64,000 bases of DNA from Streptomyces canus 299MFChir4.1 (lineage in GTDB: Bacteria > Actinomycetota > Actinomycetes > Streptomycetales > Streptomycetaceae), in the NCBI RefSeq assembly GCF_000383615.1, contig NZ_KB911582.1, forward strand, positions 207,271 through 271,270. Reading direction: 5' to 3'. Positions 11,651 through 19,680 of the stretch are shown here, one piece after another. The position numbers and the translations under genes are program-made. The notes under the pieces were generated by a model. It did no database searches, had not been told where the DNA came from, and worked only from the letters and a program-made list of their open reading frames with translations. Each line of letters starts with the position of its first letter. Position 1 is the stretch's first letter.

Positions 11651-13759
11651 TCAGAAGAGCAGTTCCTGCCCGGGAGTGGTGTCGTGGCCCTTCCTCTTCG
11701 GGCTGGGGAGATGCGGTATCCGCGCCTCGGCAGGGAGGTTTTCCCAAGTGGGCCGCAGGCCGTGTATCTGCACGTCACCTACGCGGCTCTTGAGATACAC
11801 CTGTGTCTCCTCATCCGTGGAGTACAGCACCGTCGCCCGGCTCGCCCTGGTCATGAGCACGTGGTACGCGTGCCGAACACATCGCGCGAACTCCTCCTCT
11901 TTTTCTTCCTCGCTTCCCTTCCCCTCACGGAGCTTCATGTCGAATGAACCGGGCACTTTGACGCGTTTGACCTTGCTTTCCGGGTCCTCACGCCACTGCC
12001 CCTTGCGGTAGACCCAGCGGTCGCCGCGTCTCACCATGTCGTCGCCGAGGATCACCCCGCACCAGTCCCACTCAAGGCCCTGAGCCGTGTAGACGCAGCC
12101 GATCTGGTTGATGCCATACGGGTGCACTGACCATTTCGTGGACGGGGGCACCGCTCCGTTCTCTCGGAAGGAGTCGCCTTTAGCGTTCCACGGTCGGTGC
12201 CAGTCTCCGATCCGCACGTCTGCCTCCAGGCGAGCGGCCTTCCCCTTTCCTACCGGTTCGGTCCACGGCCAGCAGAAGCCGGCCACCATCCGAGCTGTCG
12301 CTCCCGCCTCCGCCTCGGTCCTGATGATGTACTCGAGTTCCTCTGGACTGTCTGCCACTTCGACATGCATCAAACCGTCGGGGGTCCACTCGGTGGTTCC
12401 TGCCTCGATGTCGAGGACAGCCCGCACCCAGCGGATGTAGGCGTCGCTTCCCCCGCAGCGCCATTCCTCCCTGAGCCCATAGCGGAGTGGAGTGATTCCC
12501 CGCGCTCTTGCAGCTCCCTCAATCAGGCTCGCCGTTCCGACTTCCTTGGGGCGCACAGACTGGCTCTCGTCGAGAAAGAACACCGTGAGGCGCGAGGCAT
12601 CGAGCAGATCGTCCACCTGAGGCTGTTTGCCCGACTTCTCTTCTCGTTGGTACATGTCGATGGTTCGCTCTCTCACGCGATGCGCCTCGTCGCAGATGAG
12701 GACGTCCAAGGGAGGGTCCGGAGGCGTCACGAAGTGGCTGAAATAGGCGAACCTCTTCCTGAACTCCTTGTCGGTGTAGCCCACCTGCTCCTGGAGCGCC
12801 CCGTTGAAGGCACGGCTGCCGCTGGCGTACTTCACCGTATGGCCAGCTGCCTCGAAATCGGCCCTGAGCTGTAGCCCCACCGCGCTCTTCCCGGTACCTG
12901 CACCACCCGTCACGATGAACACCGCGCGTCCGTCGTCCGGCGGCGGAGCAGGCTCATCGGGATTGCCGAGAACCAGGGCGGCCCGCTGCAGAACACTCGC
13001 CGCCACTCTCTTCTGCTGCCCCCGCAGGGTGAACACCGTGTCCTCTCCGCGAGATCTGATCATCGCGTCGAGAAGCGGCGTGTTGCGCAGGTTCATGAAC
13101 CGCAGGAGTTGCTCGGCCTCCGAAGCCCCGCCGTCCTCCGCGAAATGCCGACGCAGGTCCGCAAGGAGCAGGCCACGACTGTCCTGGGTGTACACACGCT
13201 CATAGGCTCCAGTCGGCGCCAACGTATCGAGCAGCGGTCGAACCGAGTCGTCGGTGGCATTGTGCAGGTACGCGAATCCGCCGCATTCGACCGTGATGCC
13301 GCGCAGCGGTCCCTGGTCTCCAGTGAACAGTTGGTATGTGTGCCTGAGTTGCAACGCAGGGTGCTTCTTGGGCTTCTTGTATCCCGGCACCCTCACGAGC
13401 TCCGCGGTGGCAGCTTCCACCCGCGTCACCATTGACCATCTCTTCAGCTCGACGAGTTGGAACGACGGCAGACGCGTCTCGGGGTGTCGCCCGACAAGCA
13501 CCACGTCAATGAGGGGCGGCTCCCCCTTCTTCGGTTCGTCGACCGTCGCCGCGCACTCGACGACCATCTCGACGTTGCCCCGCTCCGCCTCGACCAGGTC
13601 TTCAGCCAACTCGACCAGGCTCTCGGCCCATGCCTCCCGTTCGGTATCGGACACGTCGCGCCCTCGGAAGTACCGGTATCTGGCGGCGAGATGCGGTAGC
13701 ATCCGCCGCCTTGAGTTCAGAGTGAGCAGGTCCTGCGCAGACAGCCTCAGCAGGAGCAT
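11651..13759 (-). CDS. DUF2075-type nuclease-helicase fusion, paralogue A
   Basis: A 702-residue P-loop protein of the DUF2075 (Schlafen-like, superfamily 1 helicase) group. The N-terminal part has a PD-(D/E)xK-like nuclease pattern, D85 ... E104-L-K106. The helicase core has Walker A GGAGTGKS with K291 and Walker B CDEAHRV with D357, then YTAQGLEWDWCGVILG near the C-terminus, a late SF1 motif. ATG 13759 is chosen because it directly follows a structured leader, and the resulting N-terminus (MLLLRLSAQ) lines up with that of paralogue B (MLFRASAK). A GTG 27 bases upstream would start inside the leader hairpin. Its neighbours are BREX and McrBC genes, which suggests a role in nucleic-acid defence, but no substrate is known. 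It could also act in repair. Confidence 0.8.
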   Translation of the reverse strand: MLLLRLSAQDLLTLNSRRRMLPHLAARYRYFRGRDVSDTEREAWAESLVELAEDLVEAERGNVEMVVECAATVDEPKKGEPPLIDVVLVGRHPETRLPSFQLVELKRWSMVTRVEAATAELVRVPGYKKPKKHPALQLRHTYQLFTGDQGPLRGITVECGGFAYLHNATDDSVRPLLDTLAPTGAYERVYTQDSRGLLLADLRRHFAEDGGASEAEQLLRFMNLRNTPLLDAMIRSRGEDTVFTLRGQQKRVAASVLQRAALVLGNPDEPAPPPDDGRAVFIVTGGAGTGKSAVGLQLRADFEAAGHTVKYASGSRAFNGALQEQVGYTDKEFRKRFAYFSHFVTPPDPPLDVLICDEAHRVRERTIDMYQREEKSGKQPQVDDLLDASRLTVFFLDESQSVRPKEVGTASLIEGAARARGITPLRYGLREEWRCGGSDAYIRWVRAVLDIEAGTTEWTPDGLMHVEVADSPEELEYIIRTEAEAGATARMVAGFCWPWTEPVGKGKAARLEADVRIGDWHRPWNAKGDSFRENGAVPPSTKWSVHPYGINQIGCVYTAQGLEWDWCGVILGDDMVRRGDRWVYRKGQWREDPESKVKRVKVPGSFDMKLREGKGSEEEKEEEFARCVRHAYHVLMTRASRATVLYSTDEETQVYLKSRVGDVQIHGLRPTWENLPAEARIPHLPSPKRKGHDTTPGQELLF

Positions 13760-13842
13760 GGACACGAGGTGGTTCCCCCAGGGCACGAGTGACTCGTGCG
13801 GGTGGGGGCGTGTCCTCGCGTAGAGGAAGCCCGTCGGGCCGC
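13760..13842 (-). promoter_or_regulatory. structured 5' leader A, pairs with the Shine-Dalgarno of paralogue A
   Basis: Read on the minus strand, the leader starts with GCGGCCCGACGGGCTTCC. GGACAC (13815-13810) can pair with GTGTCC (13765-13760), which touches the ATG. CCCCCA (13808-13803) pairs with the Shine-Dalgarno TGGGGG (13780-13775). Inside is an 8-bp hairpin, GCACGAGT/ACTCGTGC, at 13799-13783. A competing hairpin, CCTC/GAGG (13826-13814), shares bases with GGACAC. This is the layout of a translational switch. A near copy precedes the second paralogue. I recognise no known riboswitch class. Confidence 0.65.
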
Positions 13843-13954
13843 AATTGGTACGGGTGATCTTAGGGAGCGCGGTAGCTCACGCGTGCTCCTGCCGCCAACT
13901 CGCGGCTTGTCAGCGGTAAGTTGGCGAAAAAGCTGCGGATTTCAGGCTGGGCGC

Positions 13955-15841
13955 TCACGCCGTGACGGCCACGCGCCGCACAGCACCCACCAGCTCCCGT
14001 AGCTTCTCCTGCGTCTCCCGGTCCGTGGAGTAGAGGACCGTGCCTACCATTCCGCGGGTCAGGAGCACCTTGTACGTGTTGCGGATCAGACGGTCCACGT
14101 CGGCGTCCGGTGTCGAGCGCTTGAATACCGGGTCCTTGGACGCCGTTCGATCCGTCACCCATCGGTCGCCGCGCCACACCAAGTCGGGGCCGATGATGAC
14201 GCCGGACCAGTCGTACTCGAAGCCCTGAGCGGTGTAGACGCAGCCGATCTGGCCGAAGCCCGCCGGGTCCGTGGCCCACAGGGCGGACGGCGGTGCGCCG
14301 GAGACGGAGCGGTCGCCGCGCAGGTTCCAGGGGCGCGCCCAGTCGCCGATCCTCACGTCGTCCGGCAGGGGCTGTCCCGGCTTGGGTTCCGGGGACCAGG
14401 GCCAGCAGTAGCCAGCGGACATGCGAGCACTGTAGTTCTGACCGCGGCGGCCGTCCAGGAAGCTCTCCATCTCCTCCGGGCTCTCAGCCAAAAGGAGTTG
14501 CATGCGGTCATCGGGGTCCCACACGACCGGGCCGCCCGGCTCCAGGCCCAGGAGCCGCACCACCCAGCGCAGATAGGCGTCGCTCCCGCCGCAGCGGAAC
14601 TGGCTCTCAAGCCTGACGACGGGGCAGTTCAGCCCCCTGCGTGCCGCTGCAGCTCGGATGTCTTCCACCGTGCCCATCTCACCCGGGCGCACGACCTGGT
14701 GCTCGTCGAGCAGGAAGACGGGCACTTTGGCCACGTCTATCAGTTCGTCGATTTGCCGCTTGCCGGTCCGGTGCGCGGCCGGTGTGTACCGGTTGGCAGA
14801 TGTCTCACGGACGCGGTGCGCCTCGTCGCAGACCAGGACGTCCAGGCTGTTCTTCTCCGTCGCCATGAAGCTGTTGAAGTACTTGAAGAGCTCCTGCACT
14901 TCGCGCTTCCTGGCACCCGCGACCTTGCGCATCGTCTTGGTGAAGGACTGCGACCCGGTCGCATGCAGGGCCGGGATGCCCCGCCGGTACAACTCACCGA
15001 GCAGGGACAGCGCGATCACGCTCTTGCCGGTGCCAGGACCACCGGTGATGACCACGACTTCCTTGTGGTCGGACCGCTGGGCCTTGCGTACCGCGTTGAG
15101 CACCTTGCGGTAGGCGACTTGCTGTTCGTCGAGGAGCACGAACTGCTCCCTCTCACGGACTTCCTGAGCGGCGACCGCCATCAGCTGCTTCGACGGGACC
15201 GTCTTGCCCGCGAGCAGCGCGTCGGCGGCTGCGGCGCCCGGATGCTCAGGGCTGAGCCGGGCACGAAGGTAGTCGATGAACCCACCACGGGTGTCACCCG
15301 CGAACAACTGGCCCCACTCGTCGGACTCGATCTCGCGCAGTGCACCCACATCGAACTCGGTTGCGTTGTGCAGTAAAGCCACTCCCCCGACCCGCTCCGG
15401 GTGTCCGGCGACAGCGCCGTTGAAGTTGACGAGGTATTCGCAGTAGCGGCGCACCTGCTCGATGGGGTTGAGGACCGGCTGAGTATAGGAAGGGACGTGG
15501 CAAAGGACCGGGTCGTCCTCATCGGGGACGACATCGCTCCATTGCTTGAGCTCCACCACGACATAGGAGGGGTCGCCCGTGCGTGGGTGTATTCCGGCGA
15601 GGACCGCGTCGGCTCGCTTGCTGTTCATCGGGAGCGCGTACTCCAGCATGACCTCGACGTCACCGAGACCCGCTTCATTGAGCGCGGCGGTCAGCGCGGG
15701 AATGCTCCGTTCCCAGGACCGCGCCTCCGAGGAGTTGGGCCGATAGCCGTGCATGTGGGCGAACTGCTCGGTGAGGTGGAGGTAGAGCGAACTGTCGAGC
15801 GCCATGGCGGCGACCGTTTTCGCAGACGCGCGGAACAGCAA
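13955..15841 (-). CDS. DUF2075-type nuclease-helicase fusion, paralogue B
   Basis: A 628-residue paralogue of the gene at 11651-13759, with the same domain order. It has a nuclease-like D78 ... E97-L-K99 site, Walker A GGPGTGKS with K273, Walker B CDEAHRV, a conserved RCGGSDAYLRW segment shared with paralogue A, and the late motif YTAQGFEYDWSGVIIG. The two proteins are clearly homologous but strongly diverged, so the duplication is old. The start is TTG at 15841, an uncommon codon, chosen because GGGGGA lies 5 bases upstream and the N-terminus then aligns with paralogue A. No ATG or GTG sits at a comparable place. The gene is upstream of paralogue A on the same strand, 195 bases apart, each with its own leader. 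A defence role is inferred from the neighbourhood. Confidence 0.8.
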   Translation of the reverse strand: MLFRASAKTVAAMALDSSLYLHLTEQFAHMHGYRPNSSEARSWERSIPALTAALNEAGLGDVEVMLEYALPMNSKRADAVLAGIHPRTGDPSYVVVELKQWSDVVPDEDDPVLCHVPSYTQPVLNPIEQVRRYCEYLVNFNGAVAGHPERVGGVALLHNATEFDVGALREIESDEWGQLFAGDTRGGFIDYLRARLSPEHPGAAAADALLAGKTVPSKQLMAVAAQEVREREQFVLLDEQQVAYRKVLNAVRKAQRSDHKEVVVITGGPGTGKSVIALSLLGELYRRGIPALHATGSQSFTKTMRKVAGARKREVQELFKYFNSFMATEKNSLDVLVCDEAHRVRETSANRYTPAAHRTGKRQIDELIDVAKVPVFLLDEHQVVRPGEMGTVEDIRAAAARRGLNCPVVRLESQFRCGGSDAYLRWVVRLLGLEPGGPVVWDPDDRMQLLLAESPEEMESFLDGRRGQNYSARMSAGYCWPWSPEPKPGQPLPDDVRIGDWARPWNLRGDRSVSGAPPSALWATDPAGFGQIGCVYTAQGFEYDWSGVIIGPDLVWRGDRWVTDRTASKDPVFKRSTPDADVDRLIRNTYKVLLTRGMVGTVLYSTDRETQEKLRELVGAVRRVAVTA

Positions 15842-15933
15842 GGACTTCCCCCGGGCAGCACGAAATGACTCGTGCGGGTGGGGGCATGTCCTTCAAGACT
15901 CCACCGAGGTGGAGCGGAAGCCCGTCGGGCCGC
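15842..15933 (-). promoter_or_regulatory. structured 5' leader B, pairs with the Shine-Dalgarno of paralogue B
   Basis: Homologue of leader A. It opens with the same 18 bases, GCGGCCCGACGGGCTTCC (15933-15916), then a 6-bp hairpin CTCCAC/GTGGAG (15914-15899) that differs in sequence from the one in A. GGAC (15891-15888) pairs with GTCC (15845-15842) next to the TTG start. CCCCC (15884-15880) pairs with the Shine-Dalgarno GGGGG (15852-15848), and an inner hairpin GCACGA/TCGTGC lies at 15875-15858. Pairing is kept where the sequence differs from A, which argues for selection on the RNA fold. Confidence 0.65.
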
Positions 15934-16290
15934 GATGACGACGGGTTAGAGGTTACCTGGGCGGTGGCGAGGGACAACGACAGGGTTTCGAGGTCGCGGA
16001 GGGCTCCCGCCCCTTACGCCCCTGGCGCCCTCGGACCACGCTAGTCCGGGTTCCCGGTGCTCGCGAGTGATCCGTCGATGCGGCCCTACTCTCGGTCGCC
16101 CTGACGCGGCCGCGTTACGGTCGCGAGCAATCACCGGGCAGCATGGGCCTATCCCTGGGGTCTGGACCATCAATCGCTCAACGGACAACCAACGGCCAAC
16201 AACCCATCCACCGGGGGCCCTTGATCGCTCCCAGACCTCGCGGAACGTACCCCGTCGCCCCGGCGCCCGGTGATCCGGCAGGATGACGCC
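15934..16290. other. intergenic region between paralogue B and the mcrBC remnant
   Basis: About 350 bases. It should hold the promoter of paralogue B on the minus strand and the former mcrB promoter on the plus strand. Short A/C-rich direct-repeat-like text (CGGACAACCAACGGCCAACA) occurs near 16180. No gene, RNA motif or clear terminator was recognised. Confidence 0.4.
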
Positions 16291-16616
16291 ATGACCGACG
16301 GGTTGGACGTGTGGACGACTGCGGCAGGGTTCGACCGGAGCGCTGTGGCCGAGGACGAGGCTTCGGCGGCGGACGAGCGCAAGCAGGTGCTCGGACAGTT
16401 CCCCTTGGAGGAGTGGGCGCGCCTGCCGCTGGAGCGCTACGCGCTGGGTCTGGACCCTTCCCGTTCGGGGACGACGTACTGCCGGATGATCGAGTTCGGC
16501 ACGCCGAACCTGGGCAGTATCAGGGGCGGCAGCGCGGCGAAGCACATCCCGCGCAGGACCTGGCCGCCGCCCTGGCGACCGAGTTCACCAGCGGCGAGCC
16601 GGGCCCCGATGCCTGA
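16291..16616 (+). pseudogene. mcrB: mcrB remnant (large internal deletion)
   Basis: Only the two ends of an McrB-type GTPase/ATPase gene remain. From ATG 16291 about 85 codons match the N-terminal domain typical of actinobacterial McrB partners (WTTAAGFDRSAVAEDE ... FPLEEWARLPLERYALG ... YCRMIEFGTPNLGSIRGGSAAKH). The text then breaks near 16540 and continues in another frame as QDLAAALATEFTSGEPGPDA followed by a stop at 16616, which reads as the normal end of the gene overlapping mcrC. The whole GTPase core, with its Walker motifs, is gone. As it stands the first frame runs on into mcrC, so a fused 527-residue product is possible but would carry no motor domain. Confidence 0.75.
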
Positions 16617-17853
16617 CCGAGCCGAGATCCGTCTCGGCGAGTACCAGTCCGTCCCGCTCAATAGCGGCCAGCTCACTCCCCGGGACGTCGAGCGCCTGCG
16701 CGCCCTCGAAGCCGGGCGTCACCTCACCTTGGCCCCGGACCGGTCGGGATGGCGGCTCAAGGCCGTGGCGACCGTCGGGGTCCTGGTCCTGGACCGCGTC
16801 CGTGTGGTCATCGAACCCAAGTTCGCCATTCCGGGCGAGCGGCTCATGAGCTGGCTCACCTACGCCTTGGACGCGCCCGCCCCCGTCCCGGCTTCCACAC
16901 GAAGTTGGGCCACCAGGCCGGACGGCTACGCCGACCTCGTCGCCGCCGCCCTGCTGCAACAGTGCGAACAACTGGTCCGCGAGGGGCTCCGCCGTGACTA
17001 CGTCCGACACGACGGCGTCGAACCGGTGCTCCGAGGTCGCCTCGATGTCGCCGCCCAGGCGATCCGCCGATACGGCCAACTCGATCGGCTGCACATACGC
17101 ACCTTCGACCGCGAGGCGGATATCTGGGACAACCGTGTCCTGGCAACTGCCTTGAAGGCCACACTCGTTCTGACAGCCAGTCCGGACCTGGCACGCGACC
17201 TGCACGGCATCATGGGCGCGTTCCCGGGTCCTGCAACCCCAGCCGCGGCCCTCCGCGCCCTGGACCGGATCCCGTACACGCGCCTGAACTCCCGCTACCG
17301 CGCCGCCCATACGTGGGCGCGACTGCTCCTGAACCGCGGAGGCGTGACCGACCTGCTCGCCGACCGGGGCAACACGGCAGTTGGCCTCCTGCTGGCCATG
17401 CCCGCCCTGTGGGAGGCCGTCGTTCGACGGCTCGGCACCGAAGCCGGCATCTCCCTGGGTGGCCGTGCCGTCCCGAGCGGCGGTGACACGGCCATCACTG
17501 TCCGCGGGGACCTCCGAAACGCCTCGACCTTCCGTCCCGATCTGCTGCTCAGCCTCCCCCTGCCCGGCACCTCGCAACGCGCCCTGCTGCCGGTGGACGC
17601 CAAGTACAAGCGATACGACCGCCATGGCGTCAGCGCCGACGACGTCCACCAACTCCTCACGTACAGCGCGGGGTACGCCCCCAGCGGTGATCCGTGCGGT
17701 GTGATCATCCACCCTCGGTCAGAGGGGCACACCCACCGCGTCCTCCAGGTGGGCGGCCCGCGGGGGCGGCTCGGCACCATCCACGTCCTCGGCGTGGATA
17801 CCCAGGCGGACCCTAGGCATGCGAGCGCATGGATCAGGGCGGCGCGGCCCTGA
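16609..17853 (+). CDS. mcrC: McrC-type endonuclease subunit, intact but without its motor
   Basis: A 414-residue McrC-family protein, the nuclease subunit of methylation-dependent McrBC restriction. The N-terminal half has the usual beta-rich McrB-binding region (RLGEYQSVPL ... GVLVLDRVRVVIEPKF). The C-terminal PD-(D/E)xK site is intact: D311 in STFRPDLLLS, then D330-A-K332 in LLPVDAKYKRYD. ATG 16609 overlaps the remnant mcrB stop (GATGCCTGA), the usual coupled arrangement. In known McrBC, DNA cleavage needs the GTP-driven McrB ring, so this protein is probably inactive in its normal role unless an McrB encoded elsewhere supplies it. The reading frame shows no decay, so the mcrB deletion may be recent or mcrC may have another use. 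Confidence 0.85.
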   Translation: MPDRAEIRLGEYQSVPLNSGQLTPRDVERLRALEAGRHLTLAPDRSGWRLKAVATVGVLVLDRVRVVIEPKFAIPGERLMSWLTYALDAPAPVPASTRSWATRPDGYADLVAAALLQQCEQLVREGLRRDYVRHDGVEPVLRGRLDVAAQAIRRYGQLDRLHIRTFDREADIWDNRVLATALKATLVLTASPDLARDLHGIMGAFPGPATPAAALRALDRIPYTRLNSRYRAAHTWARLLLNRGGVTDLLADRGNTAVGLLLAMPALWEAVVRRLGTEAGISLGGRAVPSGGDTAITVRGDLRNASTFRPDLLLSLPLPGTSQRALLPVDAKYKRYDRHGVSADDVHQLLTYSAGYAPSGDPCGVIIHPRSEGHTHRVLQVGGPRGRLGTIHVLGVDTQADPRHASAWIRAARP

Positions 17854-18378: not shown

Positions 18379-18781
18379 GGCAGACGAGTCGGGCTGTACG
18401 CCGGGTTCTGTCGCCCGGTCGCCTCGCGGCGGCCGGGGAGACGGCCATCCATCTAGGGTCGACGTTGCCGTCGGCCTCGTGCGGTCTACCCACGGACTCG
18501 GGCGGGCAGCCCTCGAACGTCCGCGCAGAAACACCTGGGTGTTTCCTTTTGACCTTGCTCCGGGTGGGGTTTACCTAGCTGCTCAGGTCGCCCTGGGCAC
18601 TGGTGGTCTCTTACACCGCCGTTTCACCCTTACCGAGGACCGAAGTCCCCGGCGGTTTGTTTTCTGTGGCACTTTCCCGCGGGTCACCCCGGGTGGCCGT
18701 TAGCCATCACCCTGCCCTGTGGAGCCCGGACGTTCCTCGGGAAGCCCCCTGAGGGACTTCACGCGGCCGTCCGCCCGGCTC
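18379..18781 (-). ncRNA. rnpB: RNase P RNA
   Basis: Catalytic RNA of RNase P, which trims tRNA 5' ends. Read on the minus strand it shows the actinomycete type-A core: GAGCCGGGCGGACGGCCGCG at the 5' end, CAGGGTGATGGCTAACGGCC, ACAGAAAACAAACCGCC, GGTAAGGGTGAAACGG, GTAAGAGACCACCAG, and near the 3' end GACAGAACCCGGCGTAC and CCCGACTCGTC. The length of about 403 bases is normal. Ends are estimated from memory of Streptomyces RNase P RNAs. Its first 82 bases overlap the end of the upstream exporter gene. Confidence 0.95.
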
Positions 18782-19680
18782 GTCTGCCGTGTCGACCATG
18801 TTACCGGGCGGGTGACGGCCCCCTGACCGGAGGCGGTCGCCAGTACCGAGCCCGCCAGGATCAGGGTGAAGGCCGCCACGATGGCCGCCGTCAGTGGCTC
18901 GGACAGGAAGATCGCGCCCGCTGCCACCGCCACCGCCGGATTGACGTACGTGAACACCGTCGCCCTCGTCGGACCAGCCTCCTTGATCAGCTCCAGGAAG
19001 GCCACGAAGGCGACCGCGGTGCAGACCACGCCCAGGGTGGCCAGCGCGGCCAGGACCGAGGCGGAGGGCATCGCCGACGGCCAGGTCATCGCCGCCGCCG
19101 GGGCGTAGACCAGGGCCGCGAGGGCCAGGCAGGGGGCGATGAGCTGGAGGGTCGGGACGTCCTTCAGGTAGCGAGCGGCGATCAGAGGGGCCGTCGCGTA
19201 GCCGATCACCGTTATCAGCACCTCGGCCAGGGAGCGGGCGTCGCCGCCGGTCAGGTGGGGGACCGTAAGGACTCCTACGCCGGCCAGGCCCAGGCCGAGC
19301 CCGACGACGCGCCGCACTCCCAGTCTCTCCGTTTCGCCGAAGAAGCGGGCCAGGGCCACTCCCACGATCGGAACGCCCGCGATCAGCAGGCCCGCTGTCG
19401 AGCTGGACAGGTGGCGTTCCGCGTCGGTCAAGGTCCACCAGGGGCCGATGATCTCGATGCACGCGAAGGCCAGCATCGGGCGCCAGTGGGTGCGAACGGT
19501 GGCGGGCAGGCCCCCCTGCCGTACCGCGAAGGGAAGGAGCAGGGCCGCGCCCAGCGCACAGCGCGTGAACACCACCATCGACGGGGACAGCGGGGCATCC
19601 ACCGCCACCTTGATCAGCAGGTAGGGGATGCCCCAGACCACTCCCATCAGGGAGAACAGGAACCAGCCGCGCGCAGTCAT
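18700..19680 (-). CDS. EamA/DMT-family exporter whose frame runs into rnpB
   Basis: A 326-residue inner-membrane transporter of the drug/metabolite (EamA) family with about ten membrane helices in two EamA repeats (MTARGWFLFSLMGVVWGIPYLLIKVAV at the start, IGYATAPLIAARYLKDV at the second repeat). Members export amino acids or small metabolites; the substrate is unknown. The membrane part ends near residue 287. The remaining 40 residues (TRPVTWSTRQTSRADGRVKS ...) are polar and encoded by the rnpB promoter region and the first 82 bases of rnpB, so they are probably a read-through tail without function. It lies 18 bases downstream of the AraC regulator on the same strand, forming a likely two-gene operon. 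Confidence 0.85.
   Translation of the reverse strand: MTARGWFLFSLMGVVWGIPYLLIKVAVDAPLSPSMVVFTRCALGAALLLPFAVRQGGLPATVRTHWRPMLAFACIEIIGPWWTLTDAERHLSSSTAGLLIAGVPIVGVALARFFGETERLGVRRVVGLGLGLAGVGVLTVPHLTGGDARSLAEVLITVIGYATAPLIAARYLKDVPTLQLIAPCLALAALVYAPAAAMTWPSAMPSASVLAALATLGVVCTAVAFVAFLELIKEAGPTRATVFTYVNPAVAVAAGAIFLSEPLTAAIVAAFTLILAGSVLATASGQGAVTRPVTWSTRQTSRADGRVKSLRGLPEERPGSTGQGDG

Follow-up and report, generated by a model that had tools for sequence, protein, structure and literature searches.

The window, a stretch of 64,000 nucleotides of the genome of Streptomyces canus 299MFChir4.1 (contig NZ_KB911582.1, positions 207,271 to 271,270), carries on its minus strand two genes for SLFN-g3 helicases, gene B (13955..15841, 628 aa) followed by gene A (11651..13765 from a candidate GUG start at 13765, or up to an AUG at 13759 that gives 702 aa); the start of gene B is read as a UUG at 15841. 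Both genes match PF09848 (DUF2075) above the Pfam cut-off of 24 (294.4 and 314.1 bits; E 1.7e-93 for gene B and 1.7e-87 for gene A), and the two proteins share 36% identity, which agrees with the strong divergence asserted in an earlier, sequence-only reading of this DNA. The N-terminus of the gene B product has what we take to be a PD-(D/E)XK-like motif. Full-length matches to the PADLOC systems Nhi and PDC-S41 are absent for the window genes, which have only partial PDC-S41, Nhi and AbiO matches, the best of them PDC-S41 with gene B (E 5.2e-19). Adjoining leader B is a divergently transcribed gene (16270-17853, plus strand) with a weak McrC-like match (NCBIfam 40.9 bits against a cut-off of 338), for which the covariance models found no leader of its own. 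The sole Rfam match within the window is a class A RNase P RNA (18381-18782, minus strand).

Each helicase gene has its own leader on the minus strand and its own -10-like hexamer (TAACCT at 15950..15955 for leader B, TAAGAT at 13857..13862 for leader A). Leader B begins with the 5′ half of a conserved block, GCGGCCCGACGGGCTTCC (15916..15933), followed by a variable apical region with the hairpin CTCCAC/GTGGAG (15892..15915), identified by double changes in the helix and by the swap test described below, and by the 3′ half of the block, GGACATGCCCCCACCCGC (15874..15891), which covariation identifies as being also the anti-Shine-Dalgarno strand. Stem P3 (GCACGA/TCGTGC, 15858..15875, from fold prediction and covariation counts) overlaps the block by its first two bases; stem P2 pairs CCCCC (15884-15880) with the Shine-Dalgarno sequence GGGGG (15848..15852); and the 3′ strand of stem P4, GTCCTT (15840..15845), recognized by covariation and the swap test, overlaps the TTG start codon. 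Leader A repeats this order with the same 18 bases (13825..13842), the 3′ half GGACACGCCCCCACCCGC (13798..13815), which by covariation is likewise the anti-Shine-Dalgarno strand, a predicted stem P3 of GCACGAG/CTCGTGC (13783..13799), a Shine-Dalgarno sequence GGGGGA (13774..13779) held in P2 by the pairing of CCCCCA (13808-13803) with UGGGGG (13780-13775), and the 3′ strand of the outer stem, GTGTCC (13760..13765), which by sequence and fold contains the possible GTG start. The outer stem is GGACAC/GUGUCC in leader A and AAGGAC/GUCCUU in leader B.

The 18-base sequence occurs exactly twice in the 10.48 Mb genome, at leaders A and B, and these were also the two matches of covariance model R1 in that genome; when up to three mismatches are allowed, the pattern has 109 genomic places versus 229 for its reversed control. 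The sequence-only reading had reported a shared leader with 18 identical bases before both genes, and this is confirmed; all of the best 80 homologues kept from the protein search carry both halves of the block, which is more than chance. The stems that it quoted (P2, P3 and the outer stems) were recovered, except that the inner stem of leader A has seven pairs around a UCA loop rather than eight, because eight would leave a loop of one base. Pairing is mostly kept where the two leaders differ, as it had stated, although the A-U pair adjoining P2 in leader A is A.C in leader B, and the competing hairpin that it saw in leader A exists (UCCUC/GAGGA). The fold energy of leader A is lower than that of all 200 shuffled sequences (z -3.99), while six of 200 shuffles are as low as leader B (z only -1.88).

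Among related leaders, a TANNNT hexamer starts 17-25 nucleotides upstream of the block's initial GCGG in 61/84 cases and in 0/84 for each of two control windows, and a -35-like site is present in only 8/84. With a -10-like site at a fixed distance upstream, the block hairpin would form the 5′ terminus of the transcript. On a transcription start downstream of the stems, which the sequence-only reading had named as evidence against its proposal, this -10-like site bears only indirectly.

The run of conservation begins with GCGG and ends with CCCGC, edges that coincide with the outermost helix of the block hairpin P1. The block folds as P1a (GCGG/CCGC), an internal loop CCCGAC/CCAC, P1b (GGGC/GCCC), a second internal loop U/CAY, P1c (UCC/GGA) and a variable apical hairpin. 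Support for this fold was sought in leaders from several match sets. In one set 154 of 169 matches were parsed, 148 of them distinct; in another, 112 rows less seven antisense, duplicate, partial or odd copies left 105, which were clustered to 86 leaders, of which 81 were used for the swap test and 69 for another comparison. Alignments A4-A7 lean toward the structure of the model that produced them, and A3 and A8 are plain MAFFT alignments; A8 holds 63 of 76 segments, 13 having been excluded by choice, mostly leaders with a long P1 and including two counter-examples to P1b (L161 and L315), whereas counts over the 86 clustered leaders were made before these exclusions.

Unguided RNAalifold on the 63 block segments returned GGGC/GCCC and UCC/GGA, with double changes that keep pairing in six of the seven pairs. 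Across the whole block hairpin 90.2% of cells are paired, compared with 31-53% in slid versions, and eight of 13 pairs are doubly changed versus 2.9 in shuffles (0/500 as high). For P1b alone, three pairs and six cells are doubly changed versus 0.7 and 0.9 after shuffling (0/500); two of six slid versions (slides -3 and -2, at 0.115 and 0.141) reach or exceed its covariation score of 0.112, but these have only 26-44% of cells paired and no doubly changed pair. When the 228 position pairs between the block halves were ranked by uncorrected Fisher tests, P1c pairs took the first and second places and the P1b pair 11-10 the fifth. In the swap test on 81 leaders, the 5′ and 3′ strands of P1 are matched far beyond chance (z -15.8, 0/300; control z +1.1). 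By inspection, UCC/GGA is replaced by other complementary runs in two leaders (L217 and L353), which argues for P1c being a helix and not a sequence site. Exceptions are found in P1b, where 9/86 clustered leaders have A, T or C at position 11, facing a C, and where L161 and L157 have one mismatch each (positions 12 and 13), L157 keeping a pair of a local P0 hairpin instead. That hairpin, GCCC-GAC-GGGC, was once taken as structural and was set aside because covariation does not support it (1 cell, 86/500). P1a showed no covariation in the alignment counts, and the 26 B leaders considered alone covary modestly (4 doubly changed pairs versus 2.3 shuffled, 61/500). With the exception of P1a, the block is thus a conserved, predicted recognition domain that covaries across distant species.

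The stem that contains the Shine-Dalgarno sequence, P2, has 94.6% of its cells paired and three of its six pairs doubly changed. The start-codon stem P4, which is the outer stem, also covaries, although only 77.3% of its cells are paired; in the swap test its signal (P1 3′ strand against start region, z -5.7, 0/300) is due mainly to the 57 leaders of other genera (z -5.0, versus z -1.4, 24/300, in the 24 leaders of the window's genus). Covariation, the absence of which the sequence-only reading had named as evidence against its proposal, is thus found in P1b, P1c, P2 and P4, and its attribution of the leader's conservation to selection on the RNA is borne out by double changes that preserve pairing.

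In the locking stem, the 3′ half of the block doubles as the anti-Shine-Dalgarno strand. One strand, GCCC(C), thus serves both P1b and P2, and formation of one fold precludes the other, as happens in translational riboswitches; P4 likewise shares a strand with the apical stem of P1. Because P1b and P2 have this strand in common, certain leaders carry coordinated changes at three positions, as in L226 and L293, where an A at block position 11 is accompanied by U in the anti-Shine-Dalgarno strand and A in the Shine-Dalgarno strand. A recognition fold and an expression platform that are mutually exclusive are thereby predicted. P4 was considered as part of the recognition domain and rejected, for it covaries but excludes P1c; in the B leader with its long P1, the apical hairpin and P4 can coexist.

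Fold energies favor the shut state. The minimum free energy structures have -46.2 (A) and -49.7 (B) kcal/mol, versus -36.0 and -42.6 when P1b and P1c are enforced, a cost of 7-10 kcal/mol in the full-length RNA that rises to 12-15 when P1a is enforced too. The Shine-Dalgarno sequence and start codon are predicted to be shut, as had been suggested earlier: the probability of being unpaired is at most 0.001 for the five G of leader A and from 0 to 0.27 per base in leader B, in which the structure with P2 enforced equals that of minimum free energy. Since the state that bears the block is 7 to 15 kcal/mol dearer, a signal would need to act during transcription or to bind very tightly.

Both halves of the block are found within 150 nucleotides upstream of the gene at 80/80 of the closest homologues (the best 80 of 561 relatives in a search with protein B), which are 74-95% identical and belong to Streptomyces apart from one Kitasatospora and one Streptacidiphilus; at 76 of these 80 protein-selected loci the 18-mer is exact when A or C is allowed at position 9. 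A covariance-model search of actinobacterial genomes, which the sequence-only reading had proposed as a check, found that the leader recurs across the class Actinomycetes. It was matched in 69/295 genomes of the window's genus, in 12/85, 4/22, 2/5 and 41/150 genomes of four other families, and in 41/394 genomes and 23/137 genera of the class, of which at least two genomes (G056 and G645, matches L149 and L228) are false. In a phylum sample not split by class, the five of 246 genomes with the leader all lie within Actinomycetes. The block-only model R3 matched 32/296 genomes and 20/114 genera at E no higher than 0.05, of which one genome lacked a clear gene; the E-values that models R1-R3 assign are approximate. 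Leader-like DNA is also present in three plasmid records. This patchy spread, together with tandem or divergent copies, may resemble that of defence genes.

Homologues lacking the leader, which had been named as evidence against the proposal, were thus not encountered among close relatives and were encountered among distant ones. Nine plasmid homologues about 31-53% identical to protein B (L170-L178, taken from 28 records under 60% identity) have no two-half block upstream of the gene; model R2 matched none of them below E 0.2, and R3 none at E 0.01 or lower. Two of them (L170 and L177) nest among leader-bearing proteins in the protein tree, and therefore loss or replacement of the leader occurs; the tree is biased in that most rows were obtained via the leader and stretches with stops or under 450 residues were dropped, and three of its 13 rows scored as having no leader (L313, L316 and L151_6020) have model matches overlooked by the motif test. 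The leaderless share accordingly covers close relatives (0/80) and these nine distant plasmid ones (9/9) only, sampling having been mostly via the leader.

The leader nearly always precedes a DUF2075 gene. A DUF2075 stretch of any kind lies no more than 2.2 kb downstream of 101/112 R2 matches, including one degraded gene (L229); 29 of the 30 matches at class level are before a DUF2075 gene, three of which are only partial, and at 20 odd loci of the genus 23 of 27 matches are followed by a whole or partial DUF2075 gene. Eleven R2 matches are without DUF2075: two are antisense, two are at the end of a DNA stretch, three are orphan or degraded (L027, L101 and L164), and four represent three copies located before other genes, one copy having been read in two loci. 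One of the three precedes a type IV methyl-directed restriction enzyme (L320, 5433-5521, plus strand; PADLOC mREase_IV, E 8.4e-62), one an HNH-type enzyme (L319, 5414-5489, minus strand) and one an EVE-like protein below the Pfam cut-off with a weak mREase_IV match (L318, 4155-4243, minus strand). These weaker copies, from three genomes, sit beside DUF2075 genes that bear the leader; in each the block is kept and the 3′ hairpin is different, and by inspection an anti-Shine-Dalgarno strand of the AUGCCYYC type still faces the Shine-Dalgarno sequence and start codon.

Copies without an intact DUF2075 gene, whether orphan or degraded, were found at L153, L164, L101:7934 and L027. At L164 (3988-4093, minus strand) no DUF2075 gene accompanies the orphan leader, and P2 and P3 have become one near-perfect long hairpin. 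Two weak R3 matches (L154:5345 and G308, which is L351) have no clear defence gene. At L150 (G167, about 2200-2320) an A-like and a B-like gene are arranged head to head around a single P2/P3 hairpin that has no recognizable 5′ block, which looks like an inversion within the palindrome. Divergent leaders are back to back at L158 (G277), where an A-like and a B-like gene each have their own, and at L159 (G141), where one copy is only a 5′ part. A leader with a DUF2075 gene is also found on a faecal scaffold labelled as phage (L169, MT836681.1; viral label only) and on an IMG/VR contig labelled viral (L257 and L353 are the same contig). A viral role was considered and rejected, as 18-mer and 16-mer scans of viral contigs returned 10 and 11 stretches, of which L257 alone qualifies as a leader by score (60.1 bits; 21.2 for the runner-up).

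No Rfam match up to E 5 was found in window positions 13700-16000, and the single match at six diverged leader loci was below threshold and outside the leader; the remark that no riboswitch class of this form is known is upheld by the lack of any Rfam match at or above the gathering score to the window's two leaders or at the six diverged loci. Nor was the leader described among the best-ranked literature matches listed. Candidate structured RNAs, including cis-regulatory motifs found by comparative genomics, some of them in Actinobacteria, were reported by Weinberg et al. 2010 (PMC2864571); the passages compared contain no motif like this leader, and the paper's text has 0 occurrences of "restriction", "helicase" and "DUF". 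Type IV methyl-directed restriction enzymes (PADLOC mREase_IV) are represented by the L320 protein, which matches that family and carries the block, in contrast to the window genes, which are SLFN-g3 helicases with only partial PADLOC matches. Translational riboswitches, such as those of the preQ1 and SAM-II types, have expression platforms that sequester the Shine-Dalgarno sequence. The leader is like them in being a predicted 5′ leader with a near-invariant recognition block and strand exchange with an anti-Shine-Dalgarno strand, and unlike those named in that the window leader has no Rfam match and is a predicted ON switch on defence-type genes. Because ligand binding is the defining test and the present comparison is of sequence and predicted folds alone, the leader is said to resemble a translational riboswitch in anatomy and is not classed as one.

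Conservation, covariation of P1b, P1c, P2 and P4, shared strands and genomic distribution are established here by comparison of sequences, and the leader is probably best explained as a conserved RNA that is predicted to fold in two mutually exclusive ways and acts as a translational switch. The folding of the block into a hairpin, one strand of which also belongs to the locking stem, the class-wide spread and the other restriction-like genes downstream go beyond the sequence-only reading. In the proposed mechanism, a recognition hairpin formed by the block at the 5′ end would compete with the stem predicted to shut the Shine-Dalgarno sequence. As the expression platform, the 3′ half GCCCCCA would re-pair with UGGGGG (P2) beside P3, and GGAC with GUCC and the start codon (P4). 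The full-length RNA would rest in the shut state favored by the fold energies, so that the default is OFF. A signal could hold the 5′ hairpin first because that hairpin is transcribed before its competitor; it would bind the near-invariant internal loops, CCCGAC/CCAC and U/CAY, which are its likely contact site, during transcription while the 5′ hairpin is the only fold present. The bound hairpin would keep the anti-Shine-Dalgarno strand busy and the Shine-Dalgarno sequence free, and ribosomes might then start, turning the gene ON. The likeliest signal is a diffusible one, of the cell or of infection; sharing of the block by several unrelated restriction-like enzymes points to a common signal rather than to the product of one gene.

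The same leader might instead be controlled by a protein, the nuclease-helicase itself or another RNA-binding protein, that binds the block and sets translation, which we consider unlikely. The nearly exclusive partnership with DUF2075 (101/112 R2 matches within 2.2 kb, 29/30 at class level) and the predicted activity of the enzyme on nucleic acids favor such control, and ribosomal-protein leaders (PMC7247131) are likewise structured and tied mostly to one gene family. They differ from the present leader, which also precedes unrelated enzymes and is kept in sequence while the proteins diverge: the block is nearly unchanged as the proteins drop to about 36% identity, and its position before three unrelated enzymes in three genomes speaks against the product alone. 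Neither objection would apply to a host protein acting as the regulator.

A translational switch had been proposed earlier in riboswitch-like, thermometer-like or product-binding form; covariation and the predicted occlusion of the Shine-Dalgarno sequence and start codon support the proposal in part, and the folds that share strands give it a concrete form, a strand-exchange switch, while a plain RNA thermometer is less likely because the bases of the internal loops are near-invariant. Static occlusion of the Shine-Dalgarno sequence, an RNA thermometer or a leader opened by RNase, none with a specific ligand, would fit the great stability of P2/P3 and the low probability that the Shine-Dalgarno sequence is unpaired, but is very unlikely in that it leaves unexplained the 5′ half of the block, the internal loops, the covariation of P1b and P1c, and the persistence of the block where the 3′ hairpin differs. 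There is little to recommend a DNA operator, in which a repressor would bind GCCCGNCGGGC, an 11 bp palindrome close to where transcription presumably starts, and the RNA fold would be a static lock: the palindrome directly follows the -10-like site and is near-invariant, but its symmetry is not kept, as position 7 is C in 83/86 clustered leaders (with a gap in three) and position 11 is changed in 13/86 without ever being compensated within the palindrome, and the substitutions accord with pairing to a distant strand, tens of bases off. Attenuation by a leader peptide or upstream orf can be given almost no credence, for although many copies read GGACATGCCCCCACCC and short ATG frames in L319 and L320 end soon after (by inspection), the T of that ATG is replaced by C or G in 38/98 rows and the loop indels are not multiples of three.

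The switch that would open translation by strand exchange remains the preferred reading. More tentatively, the leader may define a new riboswitch class across Actinomycetes, with a ligand related to infection or DNA stress, that turns on a regulon of nuclease-helicase and type IV restriction genes, so that defence would be armed by RNA at the level of translation; this would be a step to a new category only if the signal proves to be infection-related. Should the switch be real, the near-invariant block would offer a direct handle on the signal, as the RNA lends itself to in vitro synthesis and screening; a defence regulon could be searched for by its leader instead of by its proteins, and dangerous nucleases would be carried silently and translated only on signal.
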